Shown: positions 4,090-38,714 of the stretch, one piece after another | Layout: every line of letters starts with the position of its first letter | How positions within the stretch are numbered: position 1 is the stretch's first letter | Source of the DNA: Olsenella sp. Marseille-P4559 | GTDB taxonomy: Bacteria > Actinomycetota > Coriobacteriia > Coriobacteriales > Atopobiaceae | Assembly: GCF_900605015.1 (NCBI RefSeq) | Contig: NZ_LR027573.1 | Location: forward strand, 1,272,853-1,336,852 | Direction: 5' to 3' | DNA: 64,000 nt | Program-made: the position numbers and the translations under genes | The notes under the pieces: generated by a model | Databases searched by the model: none | Told to the model about the DNA's origin: nothing | The model's input: only the letters and a program-made list of their open reading frames with translations

Positions 4090-4914
4090 TTACCACACCG
4101 AGAACGGCGCGTCCTGTGCGGAAACGCAGACGGTCAGGTGACCGTCGGGCGTGCGGGCCTCAGTGAAGGTCTCGTTTGCTGCTTCGGCGCCCACGGCGGC
4201 GGCAAGCGCGCGCACGGCCACGCTGGGCCGGTTGTTCTCGTGCGAGAGATGCATGCCCACGATGACCTCGGTCTCTTTGGTTACGAGGTCGGGGAGGGCG
4301 TTGGCCGCCTGGGCATTCGAAAGATGCCCGCGCCGACCGTGGATGCGTTGCTTGAGGTAGCCGGGGTAGGGACCCGTGGCGAGCATGCGTTCGTCGTGGT
4401 TGGCCTCGAGCGCAAGCACACGGCAGCCCGTGAGCGCCTGGCCGGCCTCGTCGGTGAGCACGCCGGTGTCGGTGCAGTAGCCCAGTGCGTCCGCCACCTC
4501 GCCGTTCTCGTCTATCGACGCGAAACGGAAGCCAACCGGGTCTGCGACGTCATGGCTGGTGGGGAAGACATTTACGAGCATGCCGCCCAGCTCGAGCGAA
4601 TCCATGCGGCTGATGACCTCGAACGGGAGTTGCGACAGGCGTTCTCGCGCGGCGACGGTGCCAGCCGTTGCGTAGAGCGGGCCGCCGAAGTGGTTGGCGA
4701 AGACCGGTAGGCCAGCGATGTGGTCCGTGTGTTCGTGCGTGAGCAGGATCGCGCGGATGTTGTCCACGTTGACGCCCAGCTCACGGGCGCGTGCGAGCAG
4801 CGCGCGTCGAGTGATGCCGTCGTCGACGAGCACGGAGCCCGCGGGGCCTTCGATAACAGCGGCGTTGCCCTTCGAGCCCGAGGCTAGGACGTGCAGGTGG
4901 ATCTGTGGGGTCAT
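4090..4914 (-). CDS. WalJ/YycJ-like metallo-beta-lactamase fold hydrolase
   Basis: A 274-residue protein starting MTPQIHLHVLASGSKGNA; the SGSKGNA motif near the N-terminus is typical of the YycJ/WalJ (VicX) family. The metal-binding signature is HEHTDH, followed by SHDVADPVGF and EANHDE in the usual spacing. A GAGAGGAA ribosome-binding site precedes the chosen ATG at 4914. In Firmicutes walJ sits in the WalRK operon and affects coordination of cell division with replication; here it also lies directly upstream of a two-component system, on the same strand. Substrate unknown; a 5'-exonuclease activity is reported for some homologues. Confidence 0.85.
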   Translation of the reverse strand: MTPQIHLHVLASGSKGNAAVIEGPAGSVLVDDGITRRALLARARELGVNVDNIRAILLTHEHTDHIAGLPVFANHFGGPLYATAGTVAARERLSQLPFEVISRMDSLELGGMLVNVFPTSHDVADPVGFRFASIDENGEVADALGYCTDTGVLTDEAGQALTGCRVLALEANHDERMLATGPYPGYLKQRIHGRRGHLSNAQAANALPDLVTKETEVIVGMHLSHENNRPSVAVRALAAAVGAEAANETFTEARTPDGHLTVCVSAQDAPFSVW

Positions 4915-5342
4915 GCGGCGGTTCCTCTCGGCTGTGGTCGATGCGCAACGGACAGCGTAGCAGCCCCGCACGACAGTATTTCCGAGCGGGCCGTGGCTTC
5001 ACGTGCGCACCAAACCGGTGCCATCCCGTGTTGCCGGGTGGCTCCGGTGCCGGGGGGCTCCGAGTCCGGCCCGCCTCCCCTCTACCCTCTAGAAAGTGAA
5101 CACGAATTCAATCGAGATGCTTATGGGATTCTCGCCAACTGGGCATTTCTCGGCTCTCGCCTTTCGGTATTGAATTCGTGTTCACTTTTGAGGGACATAG
5201 AAGGGCCCACGGCGGTGGGATTCGGCGATGGGCTTCGGCACACAGGGACTCGTGGCCATTGGGTTTCTGCTGCCGAAGGACCTGCTGTCGGTGGGTCTGC
5301 CATAGCATGCGCAGCCTGCCTCGGCCTGCCTGCTAGACCAGG
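4915..5342. other. Intergenic region between the WalJ-like gene and the DUF559-like gene
   Basis: 428 bases without a credible gene. The right half holds palindromic element copy A (5092-5189). The left half is GC-rich (cggggggctccgag-type runs around 5041-5085) and must hold the promoter of the WalJ-led operon, but I cannot pick a convincing -35/-10 pair. Bases 5190-5342 are the 3' flank of the DUF559-like gene; nothing recognised there. Confidence 0.6.
5092..5189. repeat. Palindromic element copy A (~98 bp)
   Basis: Perfect 20-bp inverted repeat: AAAGTGAACACGAATTCAAT at 5093-5112 and its reverse complement at 5169-5188, separated by 56 bases. Related elements lie at 6617-6713, 7010-7107 and 38626-38714. 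The loop read on the minus strand shares a core with copy C of the form GAGAAA-n-CAGTTG-CGAGAA-CCC, so more than the arms is conserved. It lies 3' of the DUF559-like gene. Confidence 0.9.
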
Positions 5343-6521
5343 TTACACACGCAGTGTCGTAACAACCTGCTCGTCAAACGTAATGTCGTAGTCCTCAATC
5401 GTCACGTCAGGTTCGGCAAACCGAGCGAGCTCCCGGCTCAGCTCTCTTCCGCGCCTGCCGGGCAAAAGAGACCAAATGAGTCGTTGCCGCTCCTTGGCAA
5501 GCCGTGGCCTTCTCAGCGCGCGTCTTTGCTTCGAGAAGTCTCGCTGATTCGTGTGCTCGAGAAGTGACATGGCCTGCAGCATTACGTGGTCGATGCCGCC
5601 GCGTTTGTAGAAGTCCTCTTTGGTGACGGGCAAAATCGAAAGCCCCTGCACTAGCAGGTCGCGGTCGCGTCGCTTGTCGGCCACGACCGACGCACGCATG
5701 GAAGCGAACGACGTATTGTCGAGAAAATCTGCGCCAGACGTTGTCGTGGCGTCTTCCCTGAAGTGGGGACTGCCATCATAGTTGAAACCAACGCTGGAAC
5801 CCCTCACAAGGGAGTCCGGGACTCGGCTTGCCTTGTCTACAAGCGAGAGGAGTTCCCCTCTTGCGACAAACCTAGGGTTAAGCTGCAGTTCACCGAGTTC
5901 ATAGCCAAGTTGGTGGAGAGGCATGCGAGCAAGGCCATTGAAGAGGGCCTCCTGAGGAGACCACGCCTCATCCATGAGCCACTCGGCTACCATGCTGCTC
6001 TGTTCAAGTCCGGCGAGGTCGCGTGCCTGGGAGATGTACGACCTGATTTTATCAGCGGTTGTTACTGGTTTGATGCCATAAACCGTTCTGCCATCCCGCG
6101 GGTCGCAGGCGTCGCGCGAGAACCGCCCGCACAACTCCAGGCCTACCAGCAGCTGGACGGCGGGAGACATGATGGTGCCCATCTCAATAAAGAGCAGTTC
6201 GGGACAGGGGATTCGGACACCATCGACCAACTCGACTGTCGAGTCTTTTGGCAGTCCGCGCACGTACACGGTGTTCCGCGCCGTTCGCGAGCGAATGCGC
6301 GCGCCTGGCCGCGGCACCATCACCTGGGCCTTGCCGCGCACGTCGGAGAGCCTCACCCCCACGGATGCCAGGCACGCGTCGATGCGCCGCCGCGTCCAGT
6401 ACTTGTGCGGGCCGACCACGGAGGTCTCAAGGCCCTTTCGGTCCGTCGTGAGCACACGGCCCGAACTTCGCCATGCGCGCAGGACATGCAGGGCGGTGAG
6501 CTTGTTGAACGTGATCCTCAT
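5343..6521 (-). CDS. Hypothetical protein with AbiEi-like middle and DUF559/Vsr-like C-terminal region
   Basis: 392 residues, no clear named homologue. The N-terminal ~75 residues look like a winged-helix segment (LTALHVLRAW, YWTRRRIDACLASVGVRL). The middle (VELVDGVRIPCPELLFIEMG, then LELCGRF) resembles the DG-(I/V)-x-V-(T/C)-x-P-x-x-LL segment of AbiEi-type and DUF559 proteins. The C-terminal part (PLHQLGYELGELQLNPRF, VGFNYDGSPHF, DKRRDRDLLVQGLSILPVT) aligns by eye with DUF559/Vsr-like nuclease domains common in Coriobacteriia, but the usual acidic residue of EYDG is Asn here (NYDG), so nuclease activity is doubtful. A GGGGAA site precedes the ATG. It stands alone, bracketed by palindromic elements A and B. 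Function unknown. Confidence 0.6.
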   Translation of the reverse strand: MRITFNKLTALHVLRAWRSSGRVLTTDRKGLETSVVGPHKYWTRRRIDACLASVGVRLSDVRGKAQVMVPRPGARIRSRTARNTVYVRGLPKDSTVELVDGVRIPCPELLFIEMGTIMSPAVQLLVGLELCGRFSRDACDPRDGRTVYGIKPVTTADKIRSYISQARDLAGLEQSSMVAEWLMDEAWSPQEALFNGLARMPLHQLGYELGELQLNPRFVARGELLSLVDKASRVPDSLVRGSSVGFNYDGSPHFREDATTTSGADFLDNTSFASMRASVVADKRRDRDLLVQGLSILPVTKEDFYKRGGIDHVMLQAMSLLEHTNQRDFSKQRRALRRPRLAKERQRLIWSLLPGRRGRELSRELARFAEPDVTIEDYDITFDEQVVTTLRV

Positions 6522-6616
6522 GCTGGTTCCCCACGAATAGCGAGCGATTGGCGCCTATAAATTGTCGCGCAGCGGTACGAGCGCATGCCGAGAGGGTACG
6601 CCATCCGGGCCTTGGG

Positions 6617-6713
6617 GAAGTGAACACGATTTCAATTGGCTTTCCCGATGCAACAAGAAAGCCCTGTTGTGTGGCGTGAGCAGAGATGCGCGATTGAAAA
6701 CGTGCGCACTTCT
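6617..6713. repeat. Palindromic element copy B, degenerate
   Basis: Left arm around 6618-6636 (AAGTGAACACGATTTCAAT) and right arm 6693-6712 (ATTGAAAACGTGCGCACTTC), again 56 bases apart. The arms differ at several positions, so this looks like an older, decayed copy. It lies ~95 bases upstream of the start of the DUF559-like gene. Confidence 0.8.
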
Positions 6714-7009
6714 CGGCGTCAGATTAAAGGGGGTACGTGGCTGCTCCAATTGCTGGTTTTGGCGCGGAATGACGTCATGAATGCGCCGCGGGGAGCCAAG
6801 ATGCCGAAAGCCGTCAGAAAAACATGGCGTCCAGACGCTGCTGGGGTGCCCTGTCGAGCGATTTCTCGCCGCCGGTGACGCTTGCGAGGGCGTCGAGAAA
6901 TAGCATCGTTTCTTCACATCTAAGGGATTTTGGTGCCCTGCACAATGGGGTGGCTTCTCAAGCGCACGAGGTCTTGCTCGGGGCGCCCGAGCGCGGGTCC
7001 CGGTCCGGG

Positions 7010-7107
7010 AAAAGTGAACACGAATCCAATCCGAGGAAGTTGCTGGCGAGAAAACCGCAGTTGCCGAGAAGCCCCTAGTGGCCGCGATTGAAAACGTGTT
7101 CACTTTT
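7010..7107. repeat. Palindromic element copy C
   Basis: Left arm AAAGTGAACACGAATCCAAT (7011-7030) and right arm ATTGAAAACGTGTTCACTTT (7087-7106), with a 56-base loop, the same spacing as copies A and B. The loop core GCGAGAAAACCGCAGTTGCC (7045-7064) matches the minus-strand loop of copy A. It lies ~127 bases upstream of tilS and could be within its leader. Confidence 0.9.
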
Positions 7108-7233
7108 CTGGGTGGGCTACGCCGCTGGAGCGTTTGGGCGGCCCCGGTGGTCCGGCCGGGATGGGCACCGGGCGCTGCGGGTAAAATCGTGCCCGTGCAA
7201 CCGTGCCGCGCACACGAAGGGAGGAAGCCGCAC

Positions 7234-8754
7234 ATGCCAAGCGTTGCTCGCAGATACGGCTCGAAAGGTCCCGGCCGCAACCTCAGCTACAGCACCGATG
7301 ACGCCCTGCGTGCCCCTGTCGTCCTCATGGTCTCCGGCGGTGCGGACTCCACCGCCCTTCTGGTGCTGGCGGCGACCTCCGCACTTGACATCGAAGACGG
7401 CCGCGGCCACGCACACATCGCCCGCGAGCGCCTCCACGTGCTCCACGTCAACCACCGCCTGCGCGGCATCGACGCCGATGAGGACGAGGAGTTCGTCCGC
7501 GACCTCGCCGCGCGCTACGGCATCCCCTGCACCATCCGTCGCGTAGACGTTGCCGCGCTGGCCGCTGCCTCCCCGGATGGCAACATCGAAAACGCCGGCC
7601 GAGAGGTGCGCTACAGCGAGGCCACCCGTCTGGCCAACGAGCTGTCGGCCAAGGTGGGCACGCCCCGCTCGGCCGCCCGCATCCTTACGGCTCACACGGC
7701 CAACGACCGAGCCGAGACCTTTGTGATGAACGCCATCCGCGGTACCGGCGCCTCGGGCCTCTCGTCCATTCCGCGCCGTCGCAACCGCGTGGTGCGCCCG
7801 CTGCTCGACCGCACCCACGACGAGCTCTGCGAGTTCTTGCGCATGCGCGGCATCGTGTGGCGTGAGGATGACACCAACGCCGATACCCGCTACCTGCGCG
7901 CATATGTGCGCCACGAAGTCATGCCGGTTCTCGAGCAGAGAAACCCGCGCGTCGTGGCAAGCATTTCGACCACCTGCGACATCCTCTCGGACGAGGACGC
8001 CTATCTCACGGCTGTCGCCGCACGCACCCTGCGCGATCTGACGCGACGCACCGGAGAGGGGACCCTTGCCCTGGACGCGGCACGTCTTGCTGCCTGCGAG
8101 GTGGCCATTGCCCGCCGTGTGGCACGCTCGGCAATCCTCACGGTGTGCCCCGAGGCCCGTCTTGAAGCGCGCCATATCGCACAGGTGTTGGCCCTTGTCG
8201 CCGCGGGTACTGGCTCTGCGTCCATCCCCATGGGCGCCGACGCCCGTGTGGAGTACGGCCTGCTCTTCCTGCGCGCTCACGCACCGGAAGCTCACGACTT
8301 TGCCGGCTGGCTCGAGGTCCCCGGCGAGCTGGTGCTGGGAGGCTCGCGTCCCGGCCGTGTGCCCGCACGGCTCACGGCGCGCCTCCTTCTGGCCCCGGCC
8401 GGCGCGGGCATACCCGAGCTTGCCCTCTCGCACGGCCGCGAGTGGGCAGGGACGTCGGTCCTTCTCGACGCTTCTGCCTGCGGCGTTGATGCCAGCCTGG
8501 GCGGCCGGCTCTGGGTCGACTCGCCGCACGCGGGAGACGTCCTCTGCCCTTTGGGCATGCATGGCCAGTCGAAGAAGGTCTCCGACCTGCTCAACGAGGT
8601 CCACGTCCCCACGGTCGAGCGCCCGCTCGTGCCCATTGTGCGCACCTCGCCAACCGGGCCGGTGGTGTGGGTTGCGGGAATCAGGGCCGACGAGCGCATG
8701 CGTTGCACGCCACGCACCTCACACTTGCTAGAATTAAGTCTCCGAACAGCATAG
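7234..8754 (+). CDS. tilS: tRNA(Ile)-lysidine synthase
   Basis: 506 residues from MPSVARRYG, chosen because GGGAGG lies 8 bases upstream; the frame is open further upstream but that part reads through palindromic element C. The PP-loop SGGADSTALL, then HVNHRLRG and the HTANDRAET region, are the N-type ATP pyrophosphatase signatures of TilS, which converts C34 of the AUA-decoding tRNA-Ile to lysidine. The C-terminal part (GRLWVDSPHAGDVLCPLGMHGQ-like segment, then KKVSDLLNE) matches the TilS C-terminal substrate-binding domain. It heads a tilS-hpt-ftsH series found in many Gram-positives. Essential in most bacteria. Confidence 0.95.
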   Translation: MPSVARRYGSKGPGRNLSYSTDDALRAPVVLMVSGGADSTALLVLAATSALDIEDGRGHAHIARERLHVLHVNHRLRGIDADEDEEFVRDLAARYGIPCTIRRVDVAALAAASPDGNIENAGREVRYSEATRLANELSAKVGTPRSAARILTAHTANDRAETFVMNAIRGTGASGLSSIPRRRNRVVRPLLDRTHDELCEFLRMRGIVWREDDTNADTRYLRAYVRHEVMPVLEQRNPRVVASISTTCDILSDEDAYLTAVAARTLRDLTRRTGEGTLALDAARLAACEVAIARRVARSAILTVCPEARLEARHIAQVLALVAAGTGSASIPMGADARVEYGLLFLRAHAPEAHDFAGWLEVPGELVLGGSRPGRVPARLTARLLLAPAGAGIPELALSHGREWAGTSVLLDASACGVDASLGGRLWVDSPHAGDVLCPLGMHGQSKKVSDLLNEVHVPTVERPLVPIVRTSPTGPVVWVAGIRADERMRCTPRTSHLLELSLRTA

Positions 8755-27174: not shown

Positions 27175-28059
27175 CTACGCCTTGTCTTGTACTAGCCCTT
27201 CCATCCAGTCCAGACACTTCTCATAGGCTTCGAGTCCTGCGGGGTTATCGATATCCCGATCAAAATCGTGCTCAAGGCCATATGCAGTGAACATTTTTGC
27301 GTGAAGCGCCCGTGCGAGTGACTTAGATACAGCGTATGGCACATCCTCGTCAGCGGTGGATGCGGCGTAGAAGACCGGGGGCATGCCGGACTGTCTGGAT
27401 GGGGTGAGTGCATTCGGATCCCTTTCATCCGGCTGAAGGCCAAGCATGGATTGCCAGCATCCGTTCTGTCTCGCGTATACGTAGAGTGAGTACCGTTCGC
27501 TCATGGGGCCGGACGTTACGGGCGCGTCGCTCACAATGTCACGAATTGAATCTGACGAAACTGGCGAATACTGCTGGTAGTGCTTTGAGGCAACGGTAAG
27601 CCGCTCATCGCACATGTCACCGTAGCCATAGAAATCGATGACTCCCGTTGGTCGAACGGGCGACCCAGACTGCGCTATCCGAGAAGAGAGAGTGAGCGCA
27701 AGGTATGCTCCTGCGGACCTCCCAAATACGAAAATCCGTTCTGCCCCAAGAAGTGATGCCATGGTGCCCGCCACCCACTGCCAGAGTCCATCGACAAAGG
27801 CATTGATGCCCCTGATGGGGGTCTCGGGCGCAAGAGGATAGTCCGCAAGCATAAGCTTGCATCCACGTGCGACGAAGGCGTCTACGTATGGCTTGGGCAA
27901 GTCATCTCGCTCGCCATAAAGTAGCCCTCCGCCGTGAAGGTAAAGGGTGAGCGAGCGGGAGAGGGGGAGAGACCGTGAACCGTCTAAACCTTCGCCGGGC
28001 TCGTGAATCGTAATCCCAGCACGAATCCCGTCCCATGTGAATACTTCCTCACGAGTCAT
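27175..28059 (-). CDS. Alpha/beta hydrolase of the HSL/esterase type
   Basis: 294 residues from the ATG at 28059 (GGAAG upstream; a TTG at 28071 is also in frame). Oxyanion motif LYLHGGGLLYG, nucleophile elbow FGRSAGAYLAL, an Asp near VFYAASTADEDVPY and a His in GLEHDFDRD give a full Ser-Asp-His triad. No signal peptide. It lies 36 bases downstream of the PucR-type regulator on the same strand, at the left end of the lower-GC island, so it may act on a substrate of that pathway, for example an ester or amide. Substrate unknown. Confidence 0.82.
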   Translation of the reverse strand: MTREEVFTWDGIRAGITIHEPGEGLDGSRSLPLSRSLTLYLHGGGLLYGERDDLPKPYVDAFVARGCKLMLADYPLAPETPIRGINAFVDGLWQWVAGTMASLLGAERIFVFGRSAGAYLALTLSSRIAQSGSPVRPTGVIDFYGYGDMCDERLTVASKHYQQYSPVSSDSIRDIVSDAPVTSGPMSERYSLYVYARQNGCWQSMLGLQPDERDPNALTPSRQSGMPPVFYAASTADEDVPYAVSKSLARALHAKMFTAYGLEHDFDRDIDNPAGLEAYEKCLDWMEGLVQDKA

Positions 28060-28095
28060 GAGAACTTCCAATCAATTTAGTCCGAGACTTTCCAC

Positions 28096-29739
28096 TTACG
28101 ACTTCCAGTTGGGGCCAAGCAGCGCGAAGATTTTCTCTGCAAGTAGTACCTGCATCAGATCATCGGTGTTGTGAACGTCAACCCCGTACTCATCGCGTAT
28201 GCGCTCGACGCGATAGCGGACCGTCTTGGGATGCACGTAGAGTTGGCTTGCCGCCGCACTGTAGCTGCATTCATTAGCGCAGAGCGTTGCAAGAGTCCGG
28301 AAGCCCTCCGGGTTCTCTTGCCTGAGCCGATCCAATCGCGGATCGAGATACGACGCGAGCTTCGAGGAGTCCCCGATGTCAATGAAGAACTTCAAGAGTC
28401 CAAGGTCCTCGTATCTGATGTAGCGGTCGGCGAGCTGGCTCGCATCGAACAACTTGTAGATGGAGAGAACCTCCGTGTTTGCCCGGGGGATGTCGTAGCG
28501 GCTGACATGGCTTGAGAGCACTAACAGATGAGAAAAGCGCGGCAGAGAGTCATCACCATGCATGTTGTCAAGAATGGTCGCCATCTCGTCTTTGTCAAAT
28601 CCAATAGAACCGGATGTGTGGTTGCGAAGGAACGAGAGGCGGTTGTTGCTCTCGAAGAAAACGGAATTGGGATACAATCGGCGGACCCTGCGCTGGAAAG
28701 TATTAAGCAGGTCCCGCACCCTGTCCGTCTGAGAGGGGTCAAGCACCGAAAATCTCAGCAGCATTACCTGGTAGAGGGCGTGGGCTCCAATGCTAAGCTC
28801 ATCTATGGCCTCATCGACCTCCTCATTCGAAACATAGCGACCTTGGAGGAGGTCGTGGACGAGCATGTTGTTCCGGTTGTATAGCTGTTGGTCTATTGCC
28901 TCCTGCTTGAGGAGCTCGATCGAGAGGAGGTTCACGTAGTTGTCTATTGTCATGCGCTGGAAGGCCGATACATCCTCTGGAATGGTATGCACAATGAGAT
29001 AACAAGAGCCATGCGACTGGCTTGGAATGTTGACCGCCAGTGCTGGCTCGGAATGCGTGTCCCAGTAACGAAGCGTTGCATTGTAGTAGTGGTTTGTCTG
29101 GTATTTCTGGTAGCGAAATTCCGAGAGCGTTGCCGACTCGAACGCGCTTGCATCTTCGTCAGTTCCCACGTGGGCATCGTCTGCCCTGTCGAAGAAGCTG
29201 ACCTCGCATCCCATGCGCTCCTTCAACTGGGAAACCACTTCGTAGATGCTCGGCTGCTGCAGTGCCAAGCGCATGGTCTTCCGGTGGGTCTCATAGAAAC
29301 TGTCGAGGAGTTGTGCATTGGAATCGATTACGGTGCCCATGACATCCATGAGGACTGCCTCGAAGTTGATCGTAGATTTCATCTGAACAAATGGTATCGA
29401 CCGCGCCTCGCAGGCATCGAGAGAAGGCTGGAGTAACTCTGCTGGCGTTCTGCCCGGCTTGTAGATTATTCCGGCTATGCCGATGCCGGCGACTTTGTCA
29501 TAGAACTCGAGGCGATCGCTGGGGCCCAAAGGAATGAGAGCGAAGAGGCTCGTAACGAGGACGAGGCCCGGCCTTCCCCACTTCTCAACATCAGGGCCTT
29601 CCATGACCATCGCGTTTGTGACCTCGCGGTCTAGTCCAGAAGCACCGGCGAGGACCACGGCTCCCTCCAGAGAAGGTAGACACAGGATATCCTTCATAAT
29701 CATCTGTCGTTCACTCTGTGGCAGGGCGGATTCCGCCAT
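28096..29739 (-). CDS. PucR-family transcriptional regulator
   Basis: 547 residues, CGGGAGG upstream of the ATG. The N-terminal ~135 residues (MKDILCLPSLEGAVVLAGASG, NAMVMEGPD, GLVLVTSLFAL) form the PucR ligand domain (PF07905). The C-terminus (LATLCANECSYSAAASQLYVHPKTVRYRVERIRDEYGVDV) is the PucR/CdaR helix-turn-helix. Known members regulate purine, allantoin and sugar-acid catabolism. It is divergent from the fdrA-ylbE fusion across a 233-base AT-rich gap and probably controls that operon in response to a pathway intermediate (inference). GC content is clearly below that of the surrounding housekeeping genes. Confidence 0.9.
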   Translation of the reverse strand: MAESALPQSERQMIMKDILCLPSLEGAVVLAGASGLDREVTNAMVMEGPDVEKWGRPGLVLVTSLFALIPLGPSDRLEFYDKVAGIGIAGIIYKPGRTPAELLQPSLDACEARSIPFVQMKSTINFEAVLMDVMGTVIDSNAQLLDSFYETHRKTMRLALQQPSIYEVVSQLKERMGCEVSFFDRADDAHVGTDEDASAFESATLSEFRYQKYQTNHYYNATLRYWDTHSEPALAVNIPSQSHGSCYLIVHTIPEDVSAFQRMTIDNYVNLLSIELLKQEAIDQQLYNRNNMLVHDLLQGRYVSNEEVDEAIDELSIGAHALYQVMLLRFSVLDPSQTDRVRDLLNTFQRRVRRLYPNSVFFESNNRLSFLRNHTSGSIGFDKDEMATILDNMHGDDSLPRFSHLLVLSSHVSRYDIPRANTEVLSIYKLFDASQLADRYIRYEDLGLLKFFIDIGDSSKLASYLDPRLDRLRQENPEGFRTLATLCANECSYSAAASQLYVHPKTVRYRVERIRDEYGVDVHNTDDLMQVLLAEKIFALLGPNWKS

Positions 29740-29972
29740 ATAGCCTCCCGGTAAACAGTTGGGCTAGTTCTTCTTATGTGCAGAATAGTCGGGGGTGTTT
29801 ATCAGAGCTTTTCCAAATATGAAAAAAGAAACCGCAAAAACTTATCCCCCATAGCACAAGACCATTGTGACTGCCAACGAGAAACTTGAGCCATCACGTC
29901 AAGGGAGGTTATGGGTTCCGGCCGGGCCATGACCTCAGCATGATGAAGAACCGCTATTTCAGGGAGGTCCTC
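29740..29972. promoter_or_regulatory. Divergent promoter region between pucR-type gene and fdrA fusion, with short upstream ORF
   Basis: AT-rich stretch (for example ccaaatatgaaaaaagaaac near 29812-29831), the expected place for both promoters and a PucR operator. A 10-codon ORF, MGSGRAMTSA (29911-29943), has a strong AAGGGAGG just before it and ends 29 bases before the fdrA start at 29973. It could be a leader peptide or a fortuitous ribosome-loading site. Confidence 0.45.
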
Positions 29973-32900
29973 ATGCTCCAAACGGTGGTCAAGAAGAACA
30001 GCTATCAGGATTCCATCAACCTGATGCTCCTTACCAACAGGATTAATGCCCTTGAAGGTGTGACGAAGAGTCAGATCATGATGGGGACGGAAGCCAACAA
30101 AGACATTTTTAGAAACGCCGGTTTGCTCACGCCGGAGGCCGAAGCTGCCAGCCCGAGCGATATGGTTGTCGTGGTCGACTCCGAGGACCCAAACGTTCTC
30201 GATGCGGTTCTCGCAAAGACGGAGGAGTTCCTATCGGATTTGTCCGTCAAGAAGAGCGAGCCCGATTTGAAGGAGGTTACCAACTGGGATGATGCCCTGA
30301 AGGCGCTTCCCGACGCCAACCTCGCCCTCTTCTCTACGCCTGGTGAGTACACCACGCCTGAGATTGAGAAGGCACTTGACCGCGGACTCAACGTGTTCTC
30401 GTTCTCGGACAACATCTCACTTGACGATGAGGTGCGTCTCAAGCACAAGGCACATGAGAAGGGCCTCATGCTCATGGGGCCGGATTGCGGCACGGGTGTC
30501 ATCTCATCTATTCCTGTCGCATTCACTAACGTCTCCAAGCCGGGCAACATCGGTATCGTGGGGGCGTCGGGGACTGGCATCCAGGAGGTCGCTGCCATCA
30601 TCGATCGCCTTGGCGGAGGCCTCATCCACGCCATTGGCACCGGTGGCCGTGACCTTAGCGCTGAGGTTGGGGCAACTACGGTGAAGGACGCCGTCGTGGG
30701 CCTCGAGAACCACGAGCCTACCGATGTCATCTGCGTCATCTCGAAGCCGCCTGCGCCAGAGGTCCGCGACGAAGTCATTGACCTTTTGGAGAAGTGCACG
30801 AAGCCCGTTGTGGCCATCTTCCTTGGCGAGAAGCCTGAGCATCATCTCGGCAAAGTCTATCTCGCCCACACACTCGAGGAGACCGCCCGCATTGCGGTTG
30901 ACCTTGCAAACGGCAACCCCGTAAAGAAGAACTACCTCGAGCCTCTGGACTTTACGTGCGACAAGCCCCTTCCCGAAGACAAGACGGTCATCGGCCTCTA
31001 CTCTGGCGGAACCCTTGCGAACGAGGCAGGCATGCTCGTTTCCGAGGCGCTTGACCTGGGCGGCGTCGTCAAAGAGGATGGCTACATACTGCACGCCAAG
31101 GGTTATGATGTTATTGACCTCGGTGATGACATCTATACGCAGGGCAAGCCACATCCCATGATTGACCCCGAGGTTCGCATCAATTACATTCGCAAGTACG
31201 CCCCCATGGAGTCCACCGGCGTCATCCTCTTCGATTGCATGCTTGGCTATGGATGCCATCCGGACATGGCAGGCGCTCTCGCTCCTGTGATTAGCGAGCA
31301 GTTGGAGAAGGCAAAGGCTGAGGGTAGAGAGTTCTACTTCGTGGGCTCTGTCACTGGGACCGAGAACGACCCGCAGGATTACCACAAGTCATTCGAGGAA
31401 CTCCGCGATGCCGGCGCCATCATGGAGACCTCGAATGCGCGCGCCATTCGTCTGGCCCTTGAGCTCAAGGGCATTCATTTCGCCGAGAAGGACCGTGACG
31501 TCATTCCCTATGAAATCAAGGACCAGTCACCCTTGCCACAGCCCAGCGCTCAAGTGACCGAGCTTCTCAACACCACCCCTCGCATTATCAACGTTGGCGT
31601 CAAGAGCTTCAACGAATCGCTGCGTGCGTATGGCGCGAAGACGGTGCAGTTTGACTGGAAGCCTCTCGCCGGCGGAAACAAGCGAATGATCCATCTGCTC
31701 GATGAACTCGACAAGCGTCGCGATGAGATTGACGCAGCGAACGCTCGTATGGTCGAGAGGTTCAAGAACTCTCAACCGTTCCTCGTAGACGTAGTCCCCG
31801 CTAAGACTGTGATACCGGAGCTAAACCGAGAGAAGAAGACACTGCTGCACTCCGGTCCTCCCATCACCTGGGAGCACATGATGGGGCCGATGAGGGGCTC
31901 CTGCATCGGTGCGGCGCTGTTCGAGGGCTGGGCGCAGACCGAGGACGAGGTGCTCAGACTCCTCGAGTCCGGTGAGGTTGAGTTCATGCCCTGCCATCAC
32001 GTTCACGCCGTTGGCCCGATGGGCGGTATCACCTCAGCGAATATGGCTGTCCTCGTCGTCCGCAACGTGGTTGATGACACGGTTGCATACTGCACCATGA
32101 ACGAGGGCATAGGCAAGGTTCTCCGCTTTGGCGCGTATAGTCAGGAGGTTGTCGACAGGCTCCACTGGATGGCGGATGAGCTTGGCCCGGTTCTCTCCAA
32201 GGCGCTCAAGCTCAAGGACGGCGGCATCAACCTAAGCGCTCTTATCGCGCGCGCCATTACGCAGGGAGACGAGTTCCATCAGCGCAATATGGCGGCATCC
32301 CTTAACTTCCTAAAGGAAGTGGCGCCGCTCATCGTCAGGACCGACGCTTCCGAGGGCGCCAAAGAGCGAGTGATTCAGTTCCTTGCGGATACGGACCAGT
32401 TCTTCCTCAACGTGATGATGGCCACCGGCAAGGCCATCGTGGATTACGCACGCAAGGATGAGGAGAGTTGCATTGTCACTACGATGACTCGCAATGGCTA
32501 CGAGTTCGGTGTGCGCATTGGCGCATGTGGCGACGAGTGGTTCACGGCGCCGGTCAATACGCCGCGCGGTCTCTACTTTGCCGGGTTTAGCGAGGAAGAC
32601 GGCTGCCCTGACAACGGTGACTCGTCGATTACCGAGACCGTGGGTGTGGGCGGTATGGCAATGGTTGCTGCGCCAGGCGTGACCCGGTTCGTTGGTGCAG
32701 GCGGGTTTGAGGACGCGCTGAACATCTCTAACGAGATGGAGCGCATCTGCGTGACCCACAACCCCAACTGGACGATTCCCACTTGGGACTTCAAGGGCAC
32801 GTGCCTCGGCATTGACATCCGAAAGGTCGTTGCGACCGGGATTACTCCTCTTATCAACACGGGCATTGCCCACAAGAAGGCCGGCGTCGGACAGGTTGGC

Positions 32901-32978
32901 GCGGGTACCGTGAGGGCCCCTCTCGCGTGCTTCGAGAAGGCACTCGAGACATATTGCGTCAAGCTTGGCATCGAGTAG
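29973..32978 (+). CDS. fdrA: FdrA-YlbE (DUF1116) fusion, probable oxamate carbamoyltransferase subunits
   Basis: 1001 residues from MLQTVVKKNSYQDSINLM; AGGGAGG precedes this ATG and the sequence aligns with the start of E. coli FdrA. Residues 1-~540 are FdrA: an acyl-CoA-synthetase-like fold with GIVGASGTGIQEV, the GRDLSAEVG segment and VIGLYSGGTL. Residues ~545-1001 are a YlbE/DUF1116 domain beginning IINVGVKSFNESLRAYGAKTVQFDW. In E. coli, FdrA, YlbE and YlbF are separate and have been reported as the oxamate carbamoyltransferase (AllFGH) that splits oxalurate into oxamate and carbamoyl phosphate. The DUF2877 (YlbF-like) gene follows after 3 bases. Confidence 0.88.
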   Translation: MLQTVVKKNSYQDSINLMLLTNRINALEGVTKSQIMMGTEANKDIFRNAGLLTPEAEAASPSDMVVVVDSEDPNVLDAVLAKTEEFLSDLSVKKSEPDLKEVTNWDDALKALPDANLALFSTPGEYTTPEIEKALDRGLNVFSFSDNISLDDEVRLKHKAHEKGLMLMGPDCGTGVISSIPVAFTNVSKPGNIGIVGASGTGIQEVAAIIDRLGGGLIHAIGTGGRDLSAEVGATTVKDAVVGLENHEPTDVICVISKPPAPEVRDEVIDLLEKCTKPVVAIFLGEKPEHHLGKVYLAHTLEETARIAVDLANGNPVKKNYLEPLDFTCDKPLPEDKTVIGLYSGGTLANEAGMLVSEALDLGGVVKEDGYILHAKGYDVIDLGDDIYTQGKPHPMIDPEVRINYIRKYAPMESTGVILFDCMLGYGCHPDMAGALAPVISEQLEKAKAEGREFYFVGSVTGTENDPQDYHKSFEELRDAGAIMETSNARAIRLALELKGIHFAEKDRDVIPYEIKDQSPLPQPSAQVTELLNTTPRIINVGVKSFNESLRAYGAKTVQFDWKPLAGGNKRMIHLLDELDKRRDEIDAANARMVERFKNSQPFLVDVVPAKTVIPELNREKKTLLHSGPPITWEHMMGPMRGSCIGAALFEGWAQTEDEVLRLLESGEVEFMPCHHVHAVGPMGGITSANMAVLVVRNVVDDTVAYCTMNEGIGKVLRFGAYSQEVVDRLHWMADELGPVLSKALKLKDGGINLSALIARAITQGDEFHQRNMAASLNFLKEVAPLIVRTDASEGAKERVIQFLADTDQFFLNVMMATGKAIVDYARKDEESCIVTTMTRNGYEFGVRIGACGDEWFTAPVNTPRGLYFAGFSEEDGCPDNGDSSITETVGVGGMAMVAAPGVTRFVGAGGFEDALNISNEMERICVTHNPNWTIPTWDFKGTCLGIDIRKVVATGITPLINTGIAHKKAGVGQVGAGTVRAPLACFEKALETYCVKLGIE

Positions 32979-32981
32979 CGC

Positions 32982-33863
32982 GTGGGTGGTGGGCTTATAG
33001 ACTGGACGGGCGGGGGCGTCATTAGCGATTTCGCCCTCGCCCGCACGAGAGGCAACGCCACGGGAGTTGTCCACAGTGTGTTCTCTTCGAGCCTCAACGT
33101 GCGGTTGCCGAGTGTGCTTCTGCACATCGGGCTTGAGGGGGACGGGCTGTCGGTTCTTGGCATCGCTTTGCCAGAGGATTGTCTGCGGCCCCTGCTGGAA
33201 AGCGTGCGGGTTGGCGGCAGGGCACAGGTCCGTGACGGTGTTCTTCGGGTGTATGGGGTGGGGCTTGTCATCCAGGTGCATCTTGGTGCGTTTCGGATTT
33301 CCGCCTGTGGCATTCCACGTCTGAATGCCTGTCAGAGGGGCGATCTTCTCTGCATGCTGGACGGGCTTTCGCTCGAGGGACGGCTCGGCTTGCCCGCGGA
33401 TGGGGCGCTGGAACGTGTGACAGAACTCATGTCGAGGGGGTTGGATACAAGCGAGTGCCGCAAGGCCTGCATCTCGTATCTGCTTGGACGTGGAATCGGG
33501 CTCACTCCTTCGGGGGATGACGTGCTTGTGGGTTATGGCATCGGCCTTCAAATGGGAGGGGTTGGCACAGAGTTTTGCGATGCGATAGCCAAGGAGAATC
33601 TCGAGATAACGACGGATGTCAGTGCGGCTTATCTTGGCGCGATGAGTAAGGGATACGCGAACCGAGGCTTTGTCGACTTGACCGATGGGCTGAGGAACGG
33701 AGAGCTGGTCGATGGAGCGCTCAGGAGGCTCCTTGCAGTTGGACACACTTCTGGTGCAGATGGGCTTTGGGGTCTGAGCCTTGCGTTGAGATTCGAGCTG
33801 GGGGGAGAGTGTCCGGCACAAAGGCGCATTTGGCACATAAGGCAAGTACGACAGGCCGGATGA
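32982..33863 (+). CDS. DUF2877 protein (YlbF/AllH-like), third oxamate carbamoyltransferase subunit
   Basis: 293 residues from a GTG three bases after the fdrA fusion stop; no clear ribosome-binding site, so translation is probably coupled. The DUF2877 signature GRGIGLTPSGDDVLVGYGIGL is at ~168-188, after VHSVFSSSLNV in the N-terminal part. In E. coli the homologous ylbF is in the allantoin cluster beside fdrA and ylbE. The start of the symporter gene overlaps or closely follows its stop (ATGA at 33860-33863). Confidence 0.8.
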   Translation: MGGGLIDWTGGGVISDFALARTRGNATGVVHSVFSSSLNVRLPSVLLHIGLEGDGLSVLGIALPEDCLRPLLESVRVGGRAQVRDGVLRVYGVGLVIQVHLGAFRISACGIPRLNACQRGDLLCMLDGLSLEGRLGLPADGALERVTELMSRGLDTSECRKACISYLLGRGIGLTPSGDDVLVGYGIGLQMGGVGTEFCDAIAKENLEITTDVSAAYLGAMSKGYANRGFVDLTDGLRNGELVDGALRRLLAVGHTSGADGLWGLSLALRFELGGECPAQRRIWHIRQVRQAG

Positions 33864-33880
33864 AAGGGAAAGTGAGACAA

Positions 33881-35134
33881 ATGACAGATAAGAAAAAGGG
33901 AGTAAGTTCAACGACGCTGATTGTCATCTCCATGGTGCTCGGGGTCGTTGTCGGTTTCATTGTCGGTGAGCCCATGAATAACGTTAAGTTCATTGGCGAC
34001 ATTTTCTTCCATCTCGTACAGATGGGCATCATTCCCTTTGTTATGTGCACCATCATTGAAGCGGTCGGCGCCCTTGATGCAAAGGCGTTCTCCGGGTACG
34101 GCCTGAAAGGTATTGGCTGGTTTGCGGCATCGTCTCTGCTTGCTGCCGGCATCGGCCTTGTTCTTGCGGTCAACATTCAGCCCGGCGCAGGCATCGAAGC
34201 CTCAACGGCCTCTGTCGATTACCAATCCACCAGCGTTACCTTCCAGGATACAATCAGCGGATTCTTCGGCTCGAACATCGTTTCTTCCATGAGCAATGGA
34301 TCAATGGTTCAGTGCATCGTGTTCGCTATCGCACTTGGCCTCGCCTGCTCCGTTTGGCGCAGGACCCATGACAACGAGTGCCTCGTCTATGACTTCTGCA
34401 GCCAGCTCTCCAAGCTCATCCTCAACATCATCCGTGCGGTGATGAAGATTGCCCCCATTGGCATTTTTTGCTATGTGAGCGCAATGATTGGCAGCCTTGG
34501 CCTTGCGGTCCTTATCCCTGTCGCAATGTACCTTGTCGTTATGGCCATTGCCGTTGCGATAATGTTTGTCATCTGGATTGCCCTTGTGTCGGTGCGCTGT
34601 AAGTACAACCCCATCCGCCTGATTCGGAAGATGTGGCCGATGAGTGCTCTTGCGCTGGGCACCATCTCCTCCGCCGTTACGCTGCCGACCGCCCTTGAGG
34701 ACACCAAGTCCAAGCTCGGCGCTGACCCCGAAATCGCTGACCTTCTCATGGTCCTCGGCATGCCACTCAATTCCAACGGTGCTGCCATCCACCTTGCCGT
34801 GACGGCTCTGACGATTGCTCAGATTTACGGTGTCGCCTTCAGTGGTGGCCAGCTCGTCTACGTGTGGATCATCTCCTTCCTGCTCTCCCTGGCCAACGCC
34901 GTTTCGCCTGGCGCGTCGCTGGTCTCTATGACCATGATCGTTCCCCAGCTCGGTCTGCCCATGGAGTCCATCGCCATCTTTGCCGGCCTCGAGTATCCCA
35001 CCGGTGCGCTCCGTACCATCCTCAACGTCGATGGCGACGTGTACACCTGTCTGATGGTCTCTGCAAGCGAGGGCAAGCTCCATTCGGAGGTTTTCTACGA
35101 CAAAGAGACCCCCAAGCCCGAGGTCGAAGCATAG
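33881..35134 (+). CDS. Dicarboxylate/amino acid:cation symporter (DAACS family), first copy
   Basis: 417 residues from MTDKKKGVSS; an alternative ATG at 33860 overlaps the preceding stop. About eight membrane helices; family landmarks are NNVKFIGDIFFHLVQMGIIP (helix 2), the serine-rich ALGTISSAVTLPTALED hairpin and MPLNSNGAAIHLAVTALTIAQ, which in GltPh/DctA relatives holds the substrate and cation sites. It is a Na+- or H+-driven carboxylate importer. Position between the carbamoyltransferase genes and carbamate kinase suggests uptake of oxalurate, oxamate or a related acid (inference). Confidence 0.9.
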   Translation: MTDKKKGVSSTTLIVISMVLGVVVGFIVGEPMNNVKFIGDIFFHLVQMGIIPFVMCTIIEAVGALDAKAFSGYGLKGIGWFAASSLLAAGIGLVLAVNIQPGAGIEASTASVDYQSTSVTFQDTISGFFGSNIVSSMSNGSMVQCIVFAIALGLACSVWRRTHDNECLVYDFCSQLSKLILNIIRAVMKIAPIGIFCYVSAMIGSLGLAVLIPVAMYLVVMAIAVAIMFVIWIALVSVRCKYNPIRLIRKMWPMSALALGTISSAVTLPTALEDTKSKLGADPEIADLLMVLGMPLNSNGAAIHLAVTALTIAQIYGVAFSGGQLVYVWIISFLLSLANAVSPGASLVSMTMIVPQLGLPMESIAIFAGLEYPTGALRTILNVDGDVYTCLMVSASEGKLHSEVFYDKETPKPEVEA

Positions 35135-35179
35135 ACGGGCCCAAGGGGTTCTGCGAGGACGGAAGGAAACGTGTTGCGG

Positions 35180-35206
35180 AGGGGTGCGATGGGGCATCGC
35201 ACCCCT
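35180..35206 (+). terminator. Intrinsic terminator or attenuator between the two symporter genes
   Basis: GGGGTGCGATG (35181-35191), loop GGG, CATCGCACCCC (35195-35205), extended by one A-T pair, then ttccttc. An 11-12 bp perfect stem in the 100-base gap between same-strand paralogues. It could uncouple expression of the second symporter and the kinase from the upstream genes. Confidence 0.8.
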
Positions 35207-35234
35207 TTCCTTCAATTCCAAGAAGGAGTGAAAC

Positions 35235-36482
35235 ATGACTGCAGGAAAGACCAGGAATACATCCCCGACAATGCTCATCGTTATCTCAATGGTTGCGGGT
35301 TTCATTGTGGGTGCCACTGTTGGTGAGTCGACGAACAACGTTAAGTTCATCGGTGACATCTTCTTCCACCTGGTTCAGATGGGCATCGTGCCATTTGTCA
35401 TGTGCACCATCATCGAGGCCATTGGTGGCCTTACTGCTAAGGACCTCTCTAACATCGGAATCAAGGGTATCATCTGGTTTGCCGCGTCCTCAATTCTCGC
35501 GTCCGCCTTCGGCATCGTTTGCACTCTCGTCTTTCAGCCCGGTGTCGGCCTCGCCAACTCTGTTCTCGTGCAGAACGCAACAACAACGGTGGAGGTATCG
35601 AATGGGATTTGGCAGGATACCGTCTTGGGCTTCTTTGGTTCAAACATCGTGGCATCGATGAGCGCCGGTGCCATAGTCCCCTGTATCGTCTTTGCAATCG
35701 TCCTGGGTCTGGTCTGCTCTGGTTGGAGGCAGGCGTATGACAACAAGTGCGTGGTCTACGATTTCTGCGTTGAGCTTGCGGCGCTTATCCTCAATATCAT
35801 CCGTGCGGTCATGAAGGTCGCTCCCGTCGGCATCTTCTGCTATGTCTCCGCGACGGTTGGTTCCATGGGCGCCGAGGTCATCGTGCCACTCTTGAAGTAC
35901 CTGCTCGTTCTCGGCAGCACAGTTCTCTTGTTCATGGTTCTATGGATTGTTGTCGTGTGCGTGCGCTGCGGGCTGTACCCCGCGCGCCTGATTCGCAAGA
36001 TGTGGCGCATGAGCGTGATGGCGCTCTCTACCACGTCGAGCGCTGTGGCCCTTCCCGTTGAGATGCAGGATGCCAAGGAGAGACTCGGTCTGCGCGAAGA
36101 CATCGCTGACCTCGTGCTTCCGCTTGGTATGCCGCTCAACTCCAATGGCGCTTCCATCCATCTTGCTGTGACGTCGCTAACAATCGCGCAGATTTATGGG
36201 GTCACCTATGCTGGAGCAGAATTGGTTTCGCTGACGGTGATCTGCACGCTCCTCTCGCTTGCCAATGCCGTTGCGCCTGGTGCCGACCTTGTCTCGCTGA
36301 CTATGATTGTTCCGCAGCTCGGGCTGCCGCTCAACAGCATTGGAATCTTTGCGGGCCTTACCTACCCGGTGGGTGCCATACGTACGATTCTCAACGTGAA
36401 CTCGGACGTGTACTGCGCTCTGATGGTTGCGGCTGACTATAGCGACGGCATAGACCGCGCCATTTTCGATGCTGACAACTGA
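35235..36482 (+). CDS. Dicarboxylate/amino acid:cation symporter (DAACS family), second copy
   Basis: 415 residues, AAGGAG upstream. Strongly similar to the preceding gene along its whole length: NNVKFIGDIFFHLVQMGIVP, the serine-rich ALSTTSSAVALPVEMQD hairpin and MPLNSNGASIHLAVTSLTIAQ. The copies differ most around the outer loop after helix 3 (QNATTTVEVSNGIWQD versus DYQSTSVTFQD). This looks like a tandem duplication followed by divergence, possibly splitting two substrates such as an imported acid and an exported product. Confidence 0.9.
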   Translation: MTAGKTRNTSPTMLIVISMVAGFIVGATVGESTNNVKFIGDIFFHLVQMGIVPFVMCTIIEAIGGLTAKDLSNIGIKGIIWFAASSILASAFGIVCTLVFQPGVGLANSVLVQNATTTVEVSNGIWQDTVLGFFGSNIVASMSAGAIVPCIVFAIVLGLVCSGWRQAYDNKCVVYDFCVELAALILNIIRAVMKVAPVGIFCYVSATVGSMGAEVIVPLLKYLLVLGSTVLLFMVLWIVVVCVRCGLYPARLIRKMWRMSVMALSTTSSAVALPVEMQDAKERLGLREDIADLVLPLGMPLNSNGASIHLAVTSLTIAQIYGVTYAGAELVSLTVICTLLSLANAVAPGADLVSLTMIVPQLGLPLNSIGIFAGLTYPVGAIRTILNVNSDVYCALMVAADYSDGIDRAIFDADN

Positions 36483-38625: not shown

Positions 38626-38714
38626 AAAAGTGAACACGAATTCGACTGGTAGCAACCAGCTGCTTGGAAAACGTGGCCAAGATGGCTGCCCCGATTGAAA
38701 ACGTGTTCACTTTT
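38626..38714. repeat. Palindromic element copy D, shorter loop
   Basis: Left arm AAAAGTGAACACGAATTCGA (38626-38645) and right arm ATTGAAAACGTGTTCACTTT (38694-38713). The right arm is identical to that of copy C, 31 kb away, but the loop is 47 bases rather than 56. It sits upstream of the rpmE promoter region. Confidence 0.88.

Follow-up and report, generated by a model that had tools for sequence, protein, structure and literature searches.

A gene at 5343-6521 (minus strand) in a 64,000-nucleotide stretch of the Olsenella sp. Marseille-P4559 genome (contig NZ_LR027573.1, positions 1,272,853 to 1,336,852; the whole stretch is called the window here, and its numbering is used throughout) is bracketed by palindromic elements of 94 bp. 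According to the open reading frame call it encodes 392 amino acids, and it belongs to a family whose genes are accompanied by such elements, with arms private to each gene, lengths stepped by the helical turn and a common central core. The finding is real and general across a bacterial family, the Atopobiaceae, and is undescribed as far as open-access searches show, since among the top-ranked results of searches of the open-access PubMed Central (PMC) literature no paper describing a palindrome-nuclease system was found. Taken together, the protein family and the private arms, with their helical ruler and common core, fit no known kind against which they were tested. What can be read directly from the sequences is the flanking, the matched arms, the length ruler, the common core, the dispersed copies and the fixed place of close gene lineages; that the elements move, we infer.

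Element E1 (5092-5189; frame 5094-5187) lies downstream of the gene, E2 (6617-6713; frame 6618-6711) upstream, between the gene and the divergent tilS, and E3 (7010-7107; frame 7012-7105) farther upstream, the frame running from AAGTG to CACTT with both ends included. All three have complementary arms of 19 to 20 bp at equal spacing and measure 94 bp in this common frame, and they stand where an earlier note on this DNA had placed three equally spaced palindromes with arms of ~20 bp around the gene. With up to three mismatches, the arm pattern gave 10 matches in the window (two of them single strays) against 0.93 expected, and none of 100 shuffles reached 10. The earlier note had seen a loop core in two of the elements. 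An asymmetric central core is in fact present in all three, as ACTGGG at 5138-5143 (plus strand) in E1, ACAGGG at 6662-6667 (minus) in E2 and ACTGCG at 7056-7061 (minus) in E3, each 44 bp from either frame end, and the remainder of the longer string in that description did not hold as a general feature. Six elements carry these arms genome-wide when up to two mismatches are allowed: E1 to E3, E4 (38627-38713; frame 38628-38712), which stands solo between the divergent coaX and rpmE genes, and two outside the window, E5 and E6. The last three are all of the 85-bp class, and the coaX-rpmE gap holds an element in seven of the eight genomes of the genus.

The link between palindromes and protein suggested in the earlier note is strongly supported by co-occurrence, flanking, controls and arms that change with the protein. 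From 102 relatives in named genomes 79 loci were kept, 74 of them with both 390-bp flanks readable, and a palindrome was counted when at least 15 of 18 outer pairs matched within 390 bp of the gene. Palindromes stood on at least one side at 65 of the 74 loci and on both sides at 40, compared with 4/138 far flanks and 2/79 interiors of genes; with proteins more than 80% identical dropped, the counts were 49/57 and 29/57, with 4/106 far flanks and 2/62 interiors. They were similarly frequent downstream (58/77 flanks) and upstream (51/76), the nearest framed upstream element ended a median of 66 bp before the start codon, and the orientation of the core relative to the gene was mixed. At two loci (L173 4368-4435 and L174 4506-4573) a perfect 18-bp GC-rich inverted repeat spanning 68 bp, common to both, was also seen past the downstream element.

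The arms are private to their gene. Across 26 non-redundant loci where both flanks held a framed element, upstream and downstream arms of one gene differed by a mean of 1.96 mismatches in 20 when the best-matching arms were taken, compared with 9.6 between genes, and 20,000 permutations never fell below 6.8. Arm distance also followed protein distance (Mantel r = 0.47, n = 37; 5,000 permutations gave at most 0.27), a correlation that shared ancestry alone can explain in part. At protein identities of at least 66%, all 35 homologue pairs had neighbors in common on at least one side and 32 on both, and at 60 to 66% identity 19 of 55 pairs did; judged by these neighborhoods, close gene lineages keep fixed genomic places without moving. 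One syntenic locus in five species (L149, L154, L172, L180 and L182), with proteins 60 to 77% identical and shared neighbors on both sides in 10 of 10 pairs, carries four arm types, and in each species the upstream and downstream arms match. By this comparison, protein and sites changed there in concert and in place. In seven orthologous downstream elements, identity was 93% in the arms, 66% in the core and 47% in the spacer outside the core, the core figure being lowered by the comparison of E1 in gene orientation, in which its core points the opposite way.

Element lengths follow a helical ruler. Among 63 elements from 15 genomes, lengths were 72 to 74, 83 to 85 and 93 to 95 bp, plus one of 98 bp, and the best period was 10.5 bp (R = 0.89, against a maximum of 0.43 in 20,000 uniform draws), with R dominated by the large length classes and the period set by the gaps between them; the seven elements of G081, near-duplicates of those in G013, were left out of this test. 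Outside the genus, 71 framed elements close to family genes measured 63 (4), 72 to 75 (50), 77 (1), 83 (8), 95 (7) and 105 bp (1). The 77-, 98- and 105-bp rows were counted, and the 105-bp row and one 95-bp row of L123 look like mispaired arms. Framed lengths of ~63, 73, 84 and 94 bp correspond to 6, 7, 8 and 9 helical turns at 10.5 bp each. Tests of length and core apply to palindromes with the frame motif and a length of 58 to 110 bp, which left out 54 of the 148 near-gene palindromes, including whole arm families such as ATTATTGCGCG, TTTTCATACA and TTAACGGACA.

Pairing of the arms begins at position -2 and fades beyond ~+19. The core, [AC]C[AT]G[CG]G, occurred in 61 of 92 framed spacers compared with 11% of shuffled spacers, usually with an A before it and a WTWT-like stretch after it. 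Its distance to the element end was 33 to 36 or 43 to 46 bp in nearly all cases (five lay at 22 bp and one at 65 bp), so that elements of 84 bp look as if a turn had been added to a 73-bp one on one side of the core, and those of 94 bp as if a turn had been added on both. This phasing of both arms and the core points to double-stranded sites read from one face of B-DNA, not to hairpins. We also considered that the outer GC-rich flanks might be part of the palindrome, as they would be after insertion into terminators; across 91 elements no pairing beyond -2 rose clearly above the null (single positions reached z = 2.8), and this was rejected.

In the AlphaFold2 (AF2) model of the window protein (predicted local distance difference test score, 87.8), VIA-align showed a weak likeness of residues 1 to 183 to the C-terminal domain of AbiEi-family antitoxins, and in residues 188 to 323 a predicted Vsr/I-Bth0305I nuclease-like fold at 8 to 12% identity, the best fold matches being I-Bth0305I (3r3p) and Vsr (1vsr/1cw0). 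E191, N247, H253 and D282 were invariant and D236 and D249 at least 90% conserved among 41 family sequences. N247 presumably sits where DUF559 has Glu, and nucleases of the I-Bth0305I type are named EDxHD. In 11 family proteins, Pfam gave no Y1/HUH profile match and none to a transposase family that passed its cut-off, with one subthreshold match of P0050 to the IS4 N-terminal domain (E value, 0.064), and PADLOC gave no match for 6. More generally, no Pfam, NCBIfam or PADLOC family exceeded its cut-off in the members scanned, and the window protein was not near any NCBIfam cut-off. A sequence search of the PDB returned no match, no winged helix was matched, and the HUH fold was absent from the 50 Foldseek rows listed and the VIA rows, an absence that by itself excludes nothing. 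Of 140 Atopobiaceae genomes, at least 128 have members of the family, often numerous; counts per genome are lower bounds, with up to 13 candidates scored per genome. In G143, two family gene fragments with equal scores on opposite strands (C1:2081119-2081910 and 2175447-2176238) may reflect a recent duplication.

With strict arms 45 to 75 bp apart, elements of the window type were found in 8 of 60 genomes, own genome included, which is the entire own genus in that set; this genus groups with Tractidigestivibacter/Olsenella. Relaxed arms were found in 16 of 140 Atopobiaceae genomes from 6 of 35 genera, with none for a reversed-pattern control. An orthologue of the 5343-6521 gene (76 to 79% identity) is present in the seven other genomes of the genus, and 93- to 95-bp elements adjoin it in all eight, G004 being readable on one side only because of a short contig. 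The elements of G101, first found through their arms, lie 34 bp from a family gene. Those found in the same way in G013, G088, G105, G158 and G162, and one in G011, have no family gene within ~3 kb. Two species with 78% identity between their window-gene proteins reach 96% identity over E6 and its surroundings (L016 3300-4800, G000 C2; G007 C12:2532-4028), probably through recent exchange of this region.

A distant homologue in the same genome (C1:97939-99039; E value, 1.2e-34) has a four-arm array of TGCGTACGCA on either side, with 73/84-bp spacing (L324 8634-10583, corresponding to G000 C1:97634-99582; the same family also occurs at L016 4040-4280). At least 32 matches to this repeat, in ~30 separate places including that of the query, were found in the genome, with 40 of 104 candidates scored; with the query used, none were seen in the seven sister genomes over this part of the query. 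In 14 arm-bearing stretches, all 53 spacings below 150 bp were 72/73 or 83/84 bp, usually alternating, where only the two gene-side arrays, found through the protein, are free of bias, the stretches having been picked with a query of 73/84 spacing. The core was central in 22 of 25 longer spacings. By gene calls that were crude and did not include the family gene, none of 21 arrays overlapped a predicted gene by more than 100 bp, and 14 lay in tandem, 6 in convergent and 1 in divergent gaps (26, 10 and 6 among 42 background gaps), which shows no preference for promoters. A 527-bp array-holding segment is duplicated ~7 kb apart at 99.8% identity (L322 986-1512 and 8135-8661), on either side of a large open reading frame that by eye is RHS-repeat-like. 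The likeness extends well past the array, and we do not take this duplication as a sign of element movement.

Elements of two other paralogues also occur as copies at unrelated places in sister genomes, where the likeness stops at the arms, with exceptions. In three E-type copies, two of them in G006 and one in G005, the likeness continues into a stretch on one side, a second repeat (L236 ~1813-1875, G006 C13) that occurs elsewhere too. The dispersed E-type copies agree at spacer positions beyond the arms and core, and the flanks of B-type copies are alike at orthologous sites, as expected. A decayed copy of paralogue B lies at G000 C1:558546-561153 (L254), where three sister species have an empty locus. 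In sister genomes, the intergenic gaps of L257 to L270 are also filled by repeated motifs around CCTAACCGTTCGG and GATAACGTGCGC, which are possibly elements of further paralogues.

To account for these features, we favor at about even weight, for and against, a partnership resembling that of REP doublets forming hairpins (REPINs) and REP-associated tyrosine transposases (RAYTs), where REP stands for repetitive extragenic palindromic. The protein would bind both arms, act on the core, and copy or maintain the elements in trans. Each arm would receive one protein unit, both units lying on the same face of B-DNA; the nuclease-fold half would reach the core and nick or cut there, and repair or copying from core cuts would multiply the elements, as is proposed for RAYTs and REPINs, while the gene stays in place. 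Copies beside the gene may additionally tune its expression, and copying or maintenance and autoregulation may both hold; for REPINs and RAYTs, excerpts of one paper speculate on both functions at once (PMC8049555). A fuller version, which we hold more tentatively and somewhat short of evenly, is that a genome has up to about a dozen parallel nuclease systems, with private arm pairs 6 to 9 turns apart, one common core, copied elements and a fixed gene. Such a self-addressed class of elements would amount to a second invention of the REPIN-RAYT layout, made with an AbiEi/Vsr-like protein and a ruler of helical turns.

Two sets of results weigh against a copying partnership. G001, G002 and G005 keep elements of paralogue B with an empty B locus and no B gene detected, so the outcome that the earlier note had named as damaging, many copies in genomes that lack the protein, was seen in part. 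The comparison of loci with and without elements proposed there did show elements missing in some relatives. No clean empty site or target duplication was found at E4, E5, E6 and two G006 copies against the orthologous regions, and no insertion scar can be claimed because the orthologous intergenic gaps also differ by other lengths and have strongly diverged.

The main rival, to which we give clearly less weight although it is the one we take most seriously, is that the elements are autoregulatory operators of an AbiEi-like DNA-bending repressor, the solos forming its regulon and the nuclease fold being a relic or no more than a DNA-binding part. As described in excerpts of PMC7319586, AbiEi and Rv2827c bind 23-bp inverted repeats, two and four in number, with in-pair gaps of 3 and 13 bp, a difference of 10 bp; both autoregulate, and AbiEi bends DNA. 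The weak fold likeness to AbiEi-family proteins and the median distance of 66 bp to the start codon fit this model too, but operators would not be expected to stand as often downstream as upstream, arrays show no preference for promoters (1/21 divergent, 6/21 convergent), active-site-like residues are conserved, and the spacer letters shared by dispersed E-type copies are unlike those of sites that arose separately. A role in defense or self-recognition, in which the nuclease's own sites direct or restrain it and dispersed copies label DNA as self, seems improbable. It would suit a nuclease-like fold and many divergent members per genome with differing arms, but PADLOC matched none of the six proteins, and the scanned window neighbors are a metallo-beta-lactamase-fold protein, TilS and a response regulator (the tilS, coaX and rpmE context having been assigned by Pfam).

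That the palindromes act as transcript hairpins, either in a structured RNA or as bidirectional terminators, is slightly less probable still. Single strands of the six elements do fold into long hairpins (-27.5 to -44.7 kcal/mol) and some elements lie at gene ends, but Rfam had no match over 4800-7400 of the window, E4 lies between divergent genes, core orientation is mixed, and length steps of ~10.5 bp are needless for a hairpin loop. The earlier judgment that these are not plain terminators is upheld by the Rfam result and the position of E4. Least probable, in our estimate, is that the elements are ordinary transposon relics resembling miniature inverted-repeat transposable elements (MITEs), with the protein a passenger or bystander. 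Inverted ends, variation between species and dispersed copies that end at the arms are what such relics would show; against them, arm sequence changes with the neighboring protein, both among paralogues and at one orthologous locus, arms are conserved far above the spacer, and in the 11 scanned proteins no match to a transposase family passed the cut-off. Replication-origin or centromere sites were also considered, elements in several genomes lying within tens of kilobases of each other, and were set aside: the clusters include the gene, and window GC skew gave nothing clear.

Among known systems, REPIN-RAYT consists of REP doublets together with REP-associated tyrosine transposases, and in the available excerpts (PMC3116915, PMC8049555) it shares with the present system a place-fixed gene tied to dispersed inverted doublets with diverse spacers, several divergent pairs of gene and element in a genome, every pair having arms of its own, and the occurrence of elements in arrays and as solos. 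Further likenesses are family genes flanked by their own cognate repeats (65/74 on one side, 40/74 on both) and gene lineages inherited in place (35/35 pairs at 66% identity or more). The REP/RAYT-like pairing that had been offered earlier as a plausible model thus stands as a functional likeness, in place-fixed genes and dispersed inverted doublets, and fails as membership: the 11 proteins have no Y1/HUH profile match, the predicted fold is Vsr/homing-endonuclease-like beside an AbiEi-like half, and the phasing suits double-stranded sites. The arms in the window also hold neither a GTAG nor a CGTC tag. Such a tag on the repeat is reportedly a feature of REPIN-RAYT and is named in the title of one paper. 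Helical-turn spacing, a conserved central core and copy numbers found to be mostly low also distinguish the family elements.

With AbiE type IV toxin-antitoxin systems, as excerpts of PMC7319586 describe them, there are in common inverted repeats of ~20 to 23 bp beside the gene, with gaps one helical turn apart. Paired inverted repeats lie upstream of the family gene (51/76 flanks), but their spacing is wider than in AbiE. Residues 1 to 183 weakly resemble the AbiEi C-terminal domain. AbiE membership fails because no nucleotidyltransferase toxin stands beside the gene at the window locus, and elements on both sides and dispersed, a central core, a fused nuclease-like fold and the absence of a matched winged helix in the window model are further differences. 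On present evidence, then, the system belongs to neither REPIN-RAYT nor AbiE and works most like REPIN-RAYT. Vsr and I-Bth0305I share the predicted fold at 8 to 12% identity; a difference is that the putative sites of the family protein flank its own gene. MITEs and enterobacterial repetitive intergenic consensus (ERIC)-like elements are short, non-coding and dispersed with inverted ends, as are the family elements, but here complete doublets recur on either side of a matching gene and no target duplication was found.

REPIN-RAYT is an odd case, a domesticated nuclease that has lived with its own sequence population for millions of years. If copying were shown here, the system could fairly be called a second REPIN-RAYT-like kind, unrelated to the first. 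An unrelated system with that layout would show that such partnerships are a general solution, and their role in the cell could be tested by comparing the two. The arm-protein pairs would also form a natural collection of DNA specificities with a built-in spacing rule, and some of the repeated intergenic DNA of Olsenella-like genomes would be explained by the elements. Elsewhere in the window, positions 28001-36000 have a GC content of 0.55 to 0.57, down from ~0.64, and are possibly acquired DNA.
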